From Miltoncostaea oceani (lineage in GTDB: Bacteria > Actinomycetota > Thermoleophilia > Miltoncostaeales > Miltoncostaeaceae): 64,000 bases of DNA. The position numbers were made by a program, and so were the translations under genes. Under the pieces are notes generated by a model. That model was not told where the DNA came from. It did no database searches and was given only the letters and a program-made list of their open reading frames with translations. This document shows, in pieces, positions 13,909 through 19,141 of the stretch (position 1 is its first letter; every line of letters starts with the position of its first letter). Location: NCBI RefSeq assembly GCF_018141545.1, contig NZ_CP064356.1, positions 2,307,001 through 2,371,000 on the forward strand, given 5' to 3'.

Positions 13909-15798
13909 TCAGGGCAGCAGGTCCTGCACCCGGTCGATCAGCGCGCCCGGGTCGATGTCGATGTCATCGACCCGGGCCGCGAGGTCGCGCAGGGCGCCGC
14001 CGCCCTCGATGAGCTCCTCCACGGGGGCGCGCTGGACGACCGCCCGCAGGACGTCCGCGACGACGCCGTTCAGCGAGCCGCGGTCCTCGGCGTCGTCGAC
14101 GGCCCGGACGAGCCCGGAGCGGACCGCCCGCTCGACGGTCGGCGGGTCCCAGGGGATGTCGCGGGTGCCGGCGCCCGAGCCGAACGAGAGCACCAGCTCC
14201 TCGCGGCCGACGTCGAGCTCGCAGGCGGCGCCCGCGAGGCCGTCGAGCACGATCCCCTGGACGGTCGCGTCGATGCCGCCGCCGCGATCGGCGGTGCGCG
14301 CCGCGCACGGGTCCGTGGTGGTGGAGCGCCCCAGGTCGGGGCCGCCCGTCGCGAGCGCACCCACCACCAGCGCGCCGCCGGCGAGGACGAGGACGGCGAG
14401 CGGGGCGAGCGCGGCGGGGGGCGGGCGCGGCCGGGCGGGGCCGGCGATCGCGCGCCACCCGGCGAGCACCGGCACGAGCGCGAGGAGGGCGAACAGCGCC
14501 GACACGAGGTACCCGGCGCGGAAGCCGCGGGTGATCGCCGCCTCGATCGCGCCGACCAGGTCGTCCCGCACCTGCCGCACCGCGGGGTCGTCGGCCGCGC
14601 CGTTCGCCGCGAACACCCCCTCGAGGTCGGGGACGGCCCCGCGGGGCGTCCGGGCGAACTCGTCGGACAGGTCGATCGCGACCGGCACCTTCTGCTGCAG
14701 CCCGAGGCGGGCGTCGAGCACGACCTGCGTCGCGTTCAGGGTCGCGCGGTCGCCGGCGGTGTCGAGGTCCGCGGCCAGGACGGGGGCGACCAGCGCGAGG
14801 GCGAGCACCAGGCCGACGTGCCGGGCGCCCACCGACACCGTCCCCGCCTTGCCGAGCCCCGCCGCCCCGTCGACCGACCCCGCCGTCAGCGGCGGCACGA
14901 GCAGGCCGAAGCCGGCGCCGCAGACCACGAGGGCGGCAGCGGCCCACGCCGACGACACCTCGGGCAGGTAGGCGAGCGCCACCAGCCCGGCGGCGAGCAA
15001 CGGCGCGCCCGCGGCGGCGCTCCACGCCGCCCCCACCCGTCGCGACACGGGGCGGACGAGGACGGCGGCGAGGGGCAGCACGCTCACGACGAGGGCGCCC
15101 GGGAGCGGCCCGAGGCCCCACACCGTCACGATCATCAGGACGGCCAGGAACAGCGCGCCGACGAGCGCGCCGAACGCGAACACCAGCCCGAGGTTCGGCC
15201 AGAGCGCCACCCGCCCGCCGCGGGCCTCCGGCGCCAGGGCCCGCACCCGGGGGTCGGCGAGCACGACCAGGGCGAGCAGGGCCACCGGCGCCTGTGCGAT
15301 GAAGATCGCCCGCCAGTCGAACAGCTCGGTGAGCACGCCCCCGACGGCGGGTCCGAGCACGGCGCCGAGCGTGCCCGCCAGCCCCCACCACGCCCGCCCC
15401 GCCGACGCCGACCCGGTGACGGCGGCCATCGCCGGCAGCGACGCGGCCAGCAGGAACGCGCCGCCGAGCCCCTGGGCCGCGCGCATCGCCACGAGGAACG
15501 GGAGCGTGTCGGCGACGCCGCAGGCGAGCGAGGCGGCGAGGAACACGACGAGGCCGACGGCCAGCAGCGACGCGGGGCGCACGACCCGCAGCACGGGGAT
15601 CAGCGCGAACGCGGCCACCGCGACGACGAGGTTGTAGGCCGTGATGACCAGGGAGACGCCGGAGATGGAGGCGTCGAGCTCGCCGTAGATCTCCGGCAGG
15701 CCGAGCATGACGATCGAGGAGTCGGCGAAGGCCAGCGCGACGGCCGCGGCGAGCGGGATCGCGCCGACGCCCCCCCGCAGCACACCTCTCGTCCCCAC
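13909..15798 (-). CDS. MFS exporter (DHA2-like) with an extra C-terminal ectodomain
   Basis: The protein is about 629 aa. The N-terminal 470 or so residues are a major-facilitator transporter: helix 1 FADSSIVMLGLPEIYGELDAS, MRAAQGLGGAFLLAASLPAM, and FDWRAIFIAQAPVALLALVVL. A large loop sits before the last helices. After the final TM helix (about residues 465-485, AVLVLAGGALVVGALA) about 145 residues follow with two cysteines (DPCAART, AACELDVG), not part of the usual MFS fold. It is probably a drug/proton antiporter. A GTG start with an AGGGGGT site was chosen. It is the last gene of the operon divergent from the sigma factor. Confidence 0.85.
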   Translation of the reverse strand: MGTRGVLRGGVGAIPLAAAVALAFADSSIVMLGLPEIYGELDASISGVSLVITAYNLVVAVAAFALIPVLRVVRPASLLAVGLVVFLAASLACGVADTLPFLVAMRAAQGLGGAFLLAASLPAMAAVTGSASAGRAWWGLAGTLGAVLGPAVGGVLTELFDWRAIFIAQAPVALLALVVLADPRVRALAPEARGGRVALWPNLGLVFAFGALVGALFLAVLMIVTVWGLGPLPGALVVSVLPLAAVLVRPVSRRVGAAWSAAAGAPLLAAGLVALAYLPEVSSAWAAAALVVCGAGFGLLVPPLTAGSVDGAAGLGKAGTVSVGARHVGLVLALALVAPVLAADLDTAGDRATLNATQVVLDARLGLQQKVPVAIDLSDEFARTPRGAVPDLEGVFAANGAADDPAVRQVRDDLVGAIEAAITRGFRAGYLVSALFALLALVPVLAGWRAIAGPARPRPPPAALAPLAVLVLAGGALVVGALATGGPDLGRSTTTDPCAARTADRGGGIDATVQGIVLDGLAGAACELDVGREELVLSFGSGAGTRDIPWDPPTVERAVRSGLVRAVDDAEDRGSLNGVVADVLRAVVQRAPVEELIEGGGALRDLAARVDDIDIDPGALIDRVQDLLP

Positions 15799-15872: not shown

Positions 15873-16802
15873 TCAGTCCCCGGCGACCGCCGCGCGCAGC
15901 CGGGTCTCCCAGCCGGGGCTGTGGTCGATGCGCCGCTCCCGCCCGACCTCGTCGATGAGCTCGTCCTTGCCCATCGCCTCCAGGTCGTCCCAGCTGCGCT
16001 CGGTCACGTAGGTGGCGGTGTCGCCGTGGAGCCGCTCCACGACCATCCGCCCGCGGTCGGCGAAGCCGAAGACGGCGCAGCCGCGGAAGCCGGCGCGCCC
16101 CACCGCGGTGAAGTCGGGGCCGAGCTCCCGCATCCGCGCGAGGCGGTACTCGGCGACGCGGCGCTCGGTGTCGGGGAGGCCCTCGACGAGCGGGTCGAGG
16201 CCGTCCGGCCGCGGCCGGACGTCCCAGTTGAGCCGCGGCCCCGCCGTGCGGACGAGCGGCATGCGCGCCTCGTCGATGAGGGTGCACTCCTCGAACAGCT
16301 CGAGCAGGAGGTTCACGGCGTGCAGCAGCAGGTCGTCCTCGCGGCCCCGGGCGATCGGCCGGGTCGCCACCACCAGCCGGTCGGAGGGGTCGCGGCAGAC
16401 CTGCAGCTCCAGGTGCGGCGCGGGGACGTGCGCCCGGGGGAACCGCGTGTAGCTCCAGGGGCGCACCCCGCGGACCTCCCGCTGCTCGCGGCCGTGGTGC
16501 TCGATCCACCGGGCCCACGCGAGGCGGGAGACCCGCTCCTTCGGCAGGTCGCGCCGCGGCACGTCCTCCCCGTCGGCGTTGATGCGGCTGCGGGGGCCGA
16601 CGACGGCGGGCAGCAGCCTCTGCCCCGGCTCCAGCCGGGCGGGGAACCCGATCTCGCGCAGCCGGTCCGACCGCCGCGACGCGTCGGTGAGCGCGGGGGT
16701 CAGCACCGCGTCGCGCGCCACGCCCAGCAGGTGCGTGTGGAGGCGCCCGATCCGCTGCTGCGCGATCCGGACCGATGTCGGACGCCGGGGCAGCGCGCTC
16801 AG
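15873..16802 (-). CDS. hypothetical protein, possible CTG start
   Basis: I do not recognise this protein of up to 309 aa. Its C-terminal half is well-structured looking (RGCAVFGFADRGRMVVERLH, then ERSWDDLEAMGKDELIDEVG). It has no signal peptide or TM helix. No ATG or GTG lies near the start of the coding-like sequence. A CTG at 16802 overlaps the upstream stop as CTGA, mimicking the ATGA/GTGA junctions of this genome. The first conventional start is GTG 16721, which would drop 27 plausible residues. It is third in the lipoprotein operon. Confidence 0.6.
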   Translation of the reverse strand: MSALPRRPTSVRIAQQRIGRLHTHLLGVARDAVLTPALTDASRRSDRLREIGFPARLEPGQRLLPAVVGPRSRINADGEDVPRRDLPKERVSRLAWARWIEHHGREQREVRGVRPWSYTRFPRAHVPAPHLELQVCRDPSDRLVVATRPIARGREDDLLLHAVNLLLELFEECTLIDEARMPLVRTAGPRLNWDVRPRPDGLDPLVEGLPDTERRVAEYRLARMRELGPDFTAVGRAGFRGCAVFGFADRGRMVVERLHGDTATYVTERSWDDLEAMGKDELIDEVGRERRIDHSPGWETRLRAAVAGD

Positions 16803-17164
16803 CTCAGGGTCACGTTGTACGAGGTCGTCCCGGAGCCGCGGTTGTCGACCTGCCCGGTGACGCTGCCCGAGATGGAGATGTAGACCGTGTGGTAGTCGCC
16901 GTCGTTCCACTCCCACCACCCCCAGATCGCCCCGTCGGAGGGGCGGTGGAGCTGGAAGCGGTAGGGCCGCCCGGCGACGTGGAGGGACCGGGCCTGCTCC
17001 AGGGTCGGCGACGTGTGCGTGACGCAGCCGACGAAGCCGGCGCTGGCCGCGATGCCGCAGGTCGCGCTCGTCGCCCGGGCGGGCGCGGCGCCGATCGCCG
17101 CCGCGAGCACCGCCGCGACCGCGGCCGCCAGCAGCACGTGGGCGGGGCGGACGACCCGGTTCAC
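16799..17164 (-). CDS. small secreted beta-rich protein
   Basis: The 121-aa protein has a Sec signal peptide (residues 1-32, ending AAPARATSA), two cysteines (TCGIAAS, VGCVTHT) likely to pair outside the cell, and a C-terminal beta domain rich in Trp, Gly and Ser/Thr (AIWGWWEWNDGDYHTVYIS). The family is not recognised. The GTG start overlaps the lipoprotein stop as GTGA. Its place in the operon suggests it works with the lipoprotein at the cell surface. Confidence 0.75.
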   Translation of the reverse strand: MNRVVRPAHVLLAAAVAAVLAAAIGAAPARATSATCGIAASAGFVGCVTHTSPTLEQARSLHVAGRPYRFQLHRPSDGAIWGWWEWNDGDYHTVYISISGSVTGQVDNRGSGTTSYNVTLS

Positions 17165-17757
17165 GGACACGGCGGGCGCCCCCCGTCCGCGTCGAGGACC
17201 TGGCAGGCCGGCAGGTCGGGGACGTCGACCCGCGCCTCCGGGGGCAGCGGCGTCGCCGGGTCGGCCATGCCGCGCGCCATCTCCGCCGCCTCCTCGGGGC
17301 TCAGCGACCCCGGGAGCGCCACGCTCGCCGCCCGGATGGCCCCCGTGGCCGGCACCCACCCCCACGGCGCCGTCAGCGACAGCCGCAGGCCCCGTGCGGC
17401 GTCCGGCGCCTCCGCGTAGACGACCTCGACCGGCAAGGGCGGCAGTGTCCGGGTGCCCTCCGGCAGGCCGCCGCCACGCGCCGCCGCGAACAGGCGGGCG
17501 AGGGCCTGCCCGTAGTCCACGCCGGGCGGGAACTCCAGGGACGCCTGCGGCGTGACGTCGTGGATCGAGGGCGAGCCGTCCGGCTGCTCGGCCCACGGCA
17601 TCGGCTCGGGTCCGCCGTCCGCCGCCTGCACCGCGGCCGGGGCGGCCGCGACCGAGGCGTCGTCGGCGCACGAGGCGAGGGACAGGACGAGGGGGGCGGC
17701 CAGCGCCAGGGCGACGAGGAGCCGCCCGGCGCGACGGGGTGCGCGGTGATGGTCCAT
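17161..17757 (-). CDS. lipoprotein sharing a domain with the adjacent anti-sigma factor
   Basis: The 198-aa protein has a lipoprotein signal with lipobox LASC (Cys30). After a linker, residues of about 75-198 form a domain with FPPGVDYGQALARL, GTRTLPPLPVEVV, LSLTAPWGWVP, SLSPEEAAEMAR and LPACQVL. All of these blocks occur in the same order in the C-terminal ectodomain of the divergent anti-sigma protein. The two cysteines near the end could form a disulfide. It leads the operon divergent from the sigma factor, so it may be a ligand, sensor or decoy for the anti-sigma. An in-frame ATG at 17766 is also possible. Confidence 0.8.
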   Translation of the reverse strand: MDHHRAPRRAGRLLVALALAAPLVLSLASCADDASVAAAPAAVQAADGGPEPMPWAEQPDGSPSIHDVTPQASLEFPPGVDYGQALARLFAAARGGGLPEGTRTLPPLPVEVVYAEAPDAARGLRLSLTAPWGWVPATGAIRAASVALPGSLSPEEAAEMARGMADPATPLPPEARVDVPDLPACQVLDADGGRPPCP

Positions 17758-17837
17758 GCCACCCATACCCGGCGGACGGCGCCCTGCTTCCCGCGCCCGG
17801 ACCGACCTGCACGGGCCGGGCCGGCGGACCGAGGCAT

Positions 17838-17843
17838 TAGGGT
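17838..17843 (+). promoter_or_regulatory. -10 box (TAGGGT) of the sigma factor gene
   Basis: TAGGGT lies exactly 6 nt before the GTG at 17850, the leaderless geometry seen at several genes in this window. No clear -35 element is visible. Confidence 0.45.
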
Positions 17844-17849
17844 GTGACC

Positions 17850-18368
17850 GTGGACGCGATGTCACCCGATGGACGGTTGGTGGCCCGCGCACGCGGCGGC
17901 GACACCCGGGCCGCCGAGGAGCTGGCCGAGCGCCACGTGCGGGCCGCGTGGAGGGCCGCCTACGCCGTCACGGGGCGCCGCGACCTCGCCGACGACGCCG
18001 TCCAGGACGGCTTCGAGCGCGCCTTCGAGGCCCTCGACCGCTTCGACCTGTCGCGTCCGTTCGCCCCGTGGCTCGTGCGGATCGTGGTCAACCGGGCGCT
18101 CACCCTCGTCACGCGCACCGCGCCGTCGGTCGAGTTCGACGAGACGGTCCACGGGGTGTCGGAGGGCGCGGAGGCGGCCCGCGAGGTCGTCGACGCCCTC
18201 ATGCGCCTCGACCCCGACCGCCGTGCCGTCGTGGTGCTGCGCGTCGTCGTGGGGCTCTCCCCCGACGAGACCGCGGCGGCGCTCGACGTCCCCGTCGGCA
18301 CGGTGCACTCGCGCCTGCACCGCGCCCTCGCCGACCTGCGACGCGCGCTGGAGGTGACCGCCCGGTGA
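17850..18368 (+). CDS. ECF-type RNA polymerase sigma factor
   Basis: The 172-aa protein has sigma region 2 (LAERHVRAAWRAAYAVTG, then DDAVQDGFERAFEALDRFD, then WLVRIVVNRAL) and region 4 (LDPDRRAVVVLRVVVGLS, then ETAAALDVPVGTVHSRLHRAL). The domain layout and size fit extracytoplasmic-function sigma factors, which direct polymerase to stress or envelope promoters. Starts at GTG 17844, GTG 17850 and ATG 17859 are possible, and 17850 fits the leaderless box. The stop overlaps the next start as GTGA, so sigma and anti-sigma are made together. Confidence 0.92.
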   Translation: MDAMSPDGRLVARARGGDTRAAEELAERHVRAAWRAAYAVTGRRDLADDAVQDGFERAFEALDRFDLSRPFAPWLVRIVVNRALTLVTRTAPSVEFDETVHGVSEGAEAAREVVDALMRLDPDRRAVVVLRVVVGLSPDETAAALDVPVGTVHSRLHRALADLRRALEVTAR

Positions 18369-19141
18369 ACGACGACGAGCTCGAGCGCCGGATCCGCGGC
18401 TCCGTGGACGGCGTCGGACCCTCCGACGAGGTGATCGCACGGGTCCGCCGGACGGCGGCGCGCGCGGCCGGGGCGGCGCGACCGGCGGCGCGGCGCTTCC
18501 GCTCGCGGCGCGCCATCCTCGGCTACGCGCTCGCCGGCGCGGTCCTCACCGGTGGCGCCGCGACGGCCGCCGTCATGCTCTCCGGCGGCTCGAGCGCCAC
18601 CGTCCCCGTGTCGCCGGAGGCCGAGGCCGCCCTGCGGGAGTCGGTCGTCGGGCGCGCCGCGTGGCTGCGGTCGGGGTACCGCGGCTCCCCGCTCGTGCAG
18701 GTCGTGCCGCGGCTGCCCTCGTTGCGGTTCCCGGAGGGGACGACGTACGGCCAGGCGCTGCGGGGCCTCGTCGCGTCCGTGGGACGCGAGGGGACGATGC
18801 CGCGGGGGACCCGCTTCGCCCCGCCCCTCCCCCGGGGCGCCGTGTGGGCGCCGTCGCGGAGCGGCCCGCGCCTCGATCTGACCGCCCCGTTCGGGTACGG
18901 CGTGCCGCGCGGCAACATCCGCGAACCCGACTTCCGCATCTCCCCGTCGCTGACCCCGCCCCAGGCCGAGCGGCTGGCGCGGGCGTACCTCGAGGGGCGG
19001 CTCACGGCGCGCCAGGCCCGCGCGATCCGGCTCGGCGTGCCGCGCCTGCCGGCGTGCCAGGTGCTGCCCCGCCGCGCCCCGTGCGACCTCGCGCCGCCGC
19101 CCGAGCCGGGATCCGCCCCCGTCGCGGGGGCGAAGGACTAG
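18365..19141 (+). CDS. transmembrane anti-sigma factor with novel ectodomain
   Basis: The 258-aa protein has a short cytoplasmic N-terminus (residues 1-47, NDDELERRIRGSV, then DEVIARVRRTA), one TM helix (about 50-73) and an extracytoplasmic part. Residues of about 118-240 match the divergent lipoprotein's domain: RFPEGTTYGQALRGL, GTRFAPPLPRG, LDLTAPFGY, SLTPPQAERLAR, LPACQVL. The zinc-type HxxxCxxC anti-sigma motif is absent, so it is assigned by position (GTGA overlap with the ECF gene) and topology. The ectodomain probably senses the envelope signal. Confidence 0.8.
   Translation: MNDDELERRIRGSVDGVGPSDEVIARVRRTAARAAGAARPAARRFRSRRAILGYALAGAVLTGGAATAAVMLSGGSSATVPVSPEAEAALRESVVGRAAWLRSGYRGSPLVQVVPRLPSLRFPEGTTYGQALRGLVASVGREGTMPRGTRFAPPLPRGAVWAPSRSGPRLDLTAPFGYGVPRGNIREPDFRISPSLTPPQAERLARAYLEGRLTARQARAIRLGVPRLPACQVLPRRAPCDLAPPPEPGSAPVAGAKD

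Follow-up and report, generated by a model that had tools for sequence, protein, structure and literature searches.

A domain shared by an anti-sigma factor and a divergently encoded lipoprotein in Miltoncostaea oceani points to an ECF module that may feed back on its own sensor

The window considered here is a stretch of 64,000 nucleotides from Miltoncostaea oceani (contig NZ_CP064356.1, positions 2,307,001 to 2,371,000), in which the genes of an ECF sigma factor and its putative anti-sigma factor lie back to back with a lipoprotein operon. The features of this locus, in positions of the window, are as follows.

13909..15783, minus strand: probable MFS-type multi-drug exporter, likely the fourth gene of the operon; its identity is taken from sequence character only
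15873..16793, minus strand: conserved protein of about 306 aa; its gene is likely the third in the operon, here and in genomes G001 and G002
16799..17170, minus strand: small secreted protein with two conserved cysteines; GTG start at 17164 or 17170
17161..17757, minus strand: lipoprotein of 198 aa; ATG at 17757, lipobox L-A-S-C, shared domain at 17164-17598
17766..17792, minus strand: ECF-type promoter GGGAAGCAGGGCGCCGTCCGCCGGGTA, 8 bp from the lipoprotein ATG
17838..17843, plus strand: possible housekeeping -10 element (TAGGGT), just 5' of the sigma GTG starts, recognized by eye
17850..18368, plus strand: ECF sigma factor of 172 aa with sigma2 and sigma4 domains; GTG start at 17844 or 17850
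18365..19141, plus strand: putative anti-sigma factor with a cytosolic part of about 50 aa, one transmembrane segment, a linker and an ectodomain; shared domain at 18659-19102

The sigma factor is composed of sigma2 and sigma4 domains only (Pfam Sigma70_r2, 7e-15; Sigma70_r4_2, 4e-15), which identifies it as a member of the ECF group. The gene that follows begins within its 3' end with an overlap of 4 nt, and this overlap, together with the gene order, suggests that its product acts as an anti-sigma factor. Class I anti-sigma factors carry an N-terminal four-helix anti-sigma domain (ASDI) of more than 50 aa (PMC7406223). The cytosolic part here, of about 45-55 aa and with no Pfam match, does not conform to this type, and at about 50 aa it appears to fall below class I length and to be closer to class II in size. 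On the opposite strand, the lipoprotein is characterized by a signal peptide and a lipobox cysteine (LASC in the window), the cysteine being found also in its counterparts at a second locus of the host genome (L010) and in G001 and G002; in the G016 protein of the same clade, a transmembrane anchor takes its place. The lipoprotein and anti-sigma genes had been described in the original prediction as divergent and about 600 bp apart, as the coordinates confirm, with the ECF gene in between, and the positions and sequence blocks given there are correct as well.

The central claim of that prediction, that the lipoprotein and the anti-sigma ectodomain have a domain in common, is confirmed by alignment. 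The two copies of this domain of about 145 aa are significantly similar (43% identity, 60/140, 72 bits, E 4e-20 by BLASTP), and their Smith-Waterman score of 210 compares with a mean of 39 (sd 7.3, maximum 70) in 2000 shuffles. The paired C-terminal cysteines, likewise anticipated in both proteins, are invariant in 21/21 family members. The domain had further been proposed to be undescribed, and this is borne out by the searches: neither the lipoprotein nor the anti-sigma factor matches any family in Pfam or NCBIfam, Pfam gives no convincing match to the 21 domain members, and sequence searches of the PDB and of PHROGs return no relative. In particular, the PknH-like sensor domain (PF14032) matches 0/21 members at E<=1. 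AlphaFold2 models reach a pLDDT of 93.8 for the lipoprotein domain and 88.4 for the anti-sigma domain, with predicted secondary-structure elements in the same order. Foldseek finds no PDB match at E<=0.001 for either model, the lipoprotein model gives nothing at Z>=2 with VIA-align, and the anti-sigma model has no match in BFVD. An identity as a GerMN-like domain, an idea derived from the order of motifs, was rejected for want of a Pfam or fold match. The domain is a new extracellular family, whose predicted fold is new in the sense of having no match among solved structures.

The domain occurs in 21 copies in all, comprising 12 anti-sigma ectodomains, five paired lipoproteins and four standalone exported or orphan proteins, the last of which (4/21) have no ECF gene nearby. 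Nine copies are located in the 4.5-Mb host genome. The divergent arrangement of lipoprotein, sigma factor and anti-sigma factor is found at five loci in two genera, namely the window, L010 (a second complete set in the host genome, on contig C2), G001, G002 (where the set is split across two contigs) and G016 (which represents the second genus). In addition, the host carries a near-identical sigma/anti-sigma pair without a lipoprotein at L009 (G000:C2:249000-257500), with an ectodomain 89% identical to that of the window, as well as copies in the ectodomains of other ECF-coupled proteins (two at L011, one at L013) and one orphan (L012). When 399 genomes sampled from the class and 396 from the phylum were scanned, the domain was seen in the Miltoncostaeaceae (Thermoleophilia) alone, with the reservation that these scans scored about 10 candidates per genome and may miss distant copies. 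A search of genome contigs with the anti-sigma factor yielded nothing, one with the lipoprotein profile yielded three matches, all at previously identified loci, and no copy was found in viral contigs. A wide occurrence of the domain in unrelated contexts, which would have spoken against a dedicated pair, is not observed, because all copies stay within one bacterial family. The notion of such a pair is supported: every lipoprotein found (5/5 loci) adjoins an ECF/anti-sigma pair divergently and traces back to one ancient duplication, although the domain itself is not exclusive to the pair.

Two further arrangements of the domain were observed. At L011 (G000:C1:234000-245000), three ECF/anti-sigma pairs lie within 11 kb, two of them bearing the shared domain with long C-terminal extensions and the third a different ectodomain, an arrangement that reads as modular ectodomain swapping. 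In G001, an anti-sigma factor with the domain (L040, 3207-4562, minus strand) continues in frame into a thioredoxin/redoxin-like domain (GGVVVVSLFASWCEPC), a fusion that suggests a redox-linked variant.

The history of the pair can be read from the tree of the 21 domains, which groups the five lipoprotein-type copies in one clade (98/96) and the six partner anti-sigma copies in another (98/96); the sigma factors of the six pairs likewise fall into a single clade (98/97). The separation of the two domain clades therefore indicates, at the level of sequence, one ancient duplication that has since been kept as a co-inherited pair. Cognate lipoprotein and anti-sigma domains are 35-40% identical and non-cognate ones 26-38%, which is about alike and as expected from one old duplication, and, across 10 pairs that are not independent of each other, identities within the two groups are correlated (Spearman 0.73). 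Across the 11 lipoprotein and anti-sigma domains, 15 positions, both cysteines among them, are fixed in 11/11, and at four more each class has its own fixed residue (E58/G60, S74/D73, W81/Y80 and P119/A120, lipoprotein residue first). The regularity of these differences (E/G, S/D, W/Y, P/A) shows that the lipoprotein copy is under a constraint of its own, and the class-specific changes could mean that it binds something other than the anti-sigma ectodomain does.

The lipoprotein genes are also connected by their promoters. The motif GGGAAGCA-N16-GTA, identical in its 8+3 bases and in their spacing, precedes 5/5 lipoprotein-clade genes and persists at L009 (3043-3089, minus strand) even though neither the lipoprotein gene nor the secreted-protein gene is left there, the L009 copy being either a relic or a rewired target. 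In an alignment of these six upstream regions, no other extended block is identical in 6/6. Exact-match scans find the lipoprotein site as the sole match in G001 and in G002, two sites in G016 (one at the lipoprotein, the other before a 134-aa hypothetical protein) and eight in the host genome, of which two precede lipoproteins and one is the L009 copy; reversed-pattern controls give 0 matches in these four genomes. Two host sites inside coding sequence (L059 and L062) were considered chance. The GGAA core of the -35 element and the GTA of the -10 element agree with the form of ECF promoters (PMC8103513), and GGGAAGCA-N16-GTA thus represents a conserved promoter of the -35/-10 type at the presumed target. 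It is probably the promoter used by the sigma factor of the window.

The remaining host sites are intergenic, two before the paralogous pair L060/L061 and one before the gene at L063, and these, together with the second G016 site, could be further targets of the sigma factor. L060 (2476, plus strand) and L061 (4920, minus strand) are paralogous short genes (109-130 aa, possible helix-turn-helix) that follow GGGAAGCAGGGGGCTTACGG...GAGTAGTCCGTAAG, and the motif there overlaps the inverted repeat CTTACGG/CCGTAAG. None of the intergenic regions read has a copy of the motif directed towards the sigma gene, and a sign that the sigma factor controls its own operon, as is common though not universal among ECF sigma factors, is therefore not seen. 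A TANNNT hexamer lies near the sigma start at five of the six loci by eye (window, L009, L010, G001 and G002), the case of G016 not being clear. At the presumed sigma gene start of G016, an inverted repeat, CACGAGA-N4-TCTCGTG (L042, 4123-4175, minus strand), is a possible operator.

The 3' end of the lipoprotein gene overlaps the start of the secreted-protein gene by 4-10 nt, and this small two-cysteine protein is present at 5/5 lipoprotein loci, its gene in G016 being split between two contigs, with the start at the extreme end of one and the body at the beginning of the other. Strong matches to it are absent elsewhere in 61 relatives and in the class and phylum samples. Weak matches (E 1e-4 to 1e-2 per genome, about 400 genomes), mostly covering signal-peptide stretches, were regarded as chance, the best-scoring of them (L112) having been inspected and rejected, and secreted-looking proteins near L009 have no homology to it by profile. 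The protein of about 306 aa, which has no match in Pfam, NCBIfam or PHROGs, keeps its syntenic place after the secreted protein and before the exporter in three genomes (window, G001 and G002), where a four-gene operon of lipoprotein, secreted protein, ~306-aa protein and exporter is likely. Because this protein and the transporter follow in these three genomes, the output of the operon would not be only regulatory.

With the shared domain, the conserved layout, the single duplication, the conserved promoter and the overlap with the secreted-protein gene as its basis, a circuit may be proposed. At rest, the membrane-bound anti-sigma factor would hold the sigma factor, and the sigma factor would be set free once the extracellular domain senses a ligand or a change in the envelope. 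It would then transcribe mainly one operon, the divergent one beside its own gene. The first product would be the lipoprotein, a diverged paralogue of the sensor domain tethered on the outer membrane face, and the second the small secreted disulfide protein. As a copy of the sensor, the induced lipoprotein would most likely act back on it and dampen the response, either as a decoy that soaks up the same ligand or as a co-inhibitor that pairs with the anti-sigma ectodomain and stabilizes it. Such negative feedback would be the likeliest role of the lipoprotein. The recurrence of the pair at other loci, the operon headed by the lipoprotein gene and its ECF-type promoter were not part of the original prediction, in which the lipoprotein may titrate, mimic or relay the signal sensed by the anti-sigma factor; the promoter in particular raises the likelihood of an action back on the sensor. 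Since the sensor-bearing lipoprotein heads a presumed dedicated target operon, feedback of the circuit on its own sensor is probable. The sigma/anti-sigma part can evidently exist alone, because the L009 pair persists without the lipoprotein. Taken together, a self-contained one-component ECF module, with a lipoprotein that feeds back most simply as decoy or co-inhibitor, stands about an even chance of being correct. The broader description, in which the dedicated output of an ECF factor is a membrane-tethered sensor copy, in effect an encoded decoy receptor, with a co-translated secreted protein and an undescribed extracellular fold, is offered more tentatively, as somewhat short of evenly balanced.

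Alternatively, the lipoprotein may be an effector that, together with the secreted protein, binds, captures or neutralizes the sensed compound, the shared domain then simply reflecting shared ligand binding, as is the case for the carbohydrate-binding modules (CBMs) of RsgI anti-sigma factors and cellulosomal proteins. Co-transcription of the two genes, as the layout suggests at 5/5 loci, agrees with this role, and the MFS-type exporter at three loci would fit detoxification or secretion; however, L010 and G016 lack both the exporter and the third gene after the secreted protein. Standalone copies of the domain in exported proteins far from ECF genes, and the precedent of anti-sigma factors with CBMs on the outer surface (PMC4711584), also point towards a binding function, but neither a catalytic signature nor a known family accompanies it, and we regard an effector role, although the main rival, as rather unlikely. 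It is more doubtful still, and on balance improbable, that the secreted protein is itself the ligand, captured by the lipoprotein and then presented to or withheld from the anti-sigma ectodomain, as in cell-density sensing or positive feedback. Its strong matches do occur only where the lipoprotein occurs (5/5, with overlapping genes), yet many domain-bearing anti-sigma factors, including those at L009, L011 and L013, have no secreted protein anywhere nearby, so that it cannot be the general ligand. That a generic envelope domain stands beside the ECF pair by happenstance, with no functional link, draws on the 4/21 copies unlinked to ECF genes but is very improbable, as it is already contradicted by the conserved promoter, the linkage retained at five diverged loci and the co-inherited clades.

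For most ECF/anti-sigma systems, the signal that is sensed and the way of resetting are poorly known. Since the apparent target operon here encodes a sensor paralogue, a handful of purified domains and a single promoter would suffice to test the preferred reading of the lipoprotein as decoy or co-inhibitor. A further gain is an extracellular domain family, confidently modelled and with no match among solved folds, from a bacterial family on which hardly any experiments have been done. As regards known systems, CnrY does not, to our knowledge, carry such an ectodomain. A small cytosolic part (about 50 aa here) and one transmembrane segment are nevertheless features in common with CnrY-type class II anti-sigma factors (PMC7406223), a resemblance in size and layout.

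In Mycobacterium tuberculosis, the PknH sensor domain is also found on the lipoproteins LppH, LpqQ, LprH and LpqA (PMC4118811), a comparable case of a transmembrane signalling protein whose extracellular sensor domain, with intramolecular disulfides in PknH, recurs on lipoproteins; PknH, however, is a Ser/Thr kinase receptor rather than an anti-sigma factor, and its domain is a different one. In Streptomyces, loss of the lipoprotein CseA of the sigmaE-CseBC system raises sigE promoter activity (PMC6767563), which provides an example of a lipoprotein in an ECF sigma neighbourhood that dampens signalling from the outer membrane face, although CseA lies within the sigE operon and acts via a two-component system, not an anti-sigma factor. 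CseA is described as of unknown function, and a shared sensor domain is not reported for it (PMC6767563). In the case of MucB/RseB with MucA/RseA, the anti-sigma factor is likewise modulated by another protein outside the cytoplasm, but MucB/RseB is not reported to be paralogous to the periplasmic domain of the anti-sigma factor (PMC7400510). The RsgI anti-sigma factors of C. thermocellum bear CBMs on the cell surface (PMC4711584), an ectodomain type found also on extracellular proteins of the sensed response, but they belong to the SigI family, with known sugar-binding modules and enzyme targets. None of the systems compared is the same as the present one, in which the presumed target operon of a sigma factor begins with the gene for a paralogue of the ectodomain of its own anti-sigma factor.
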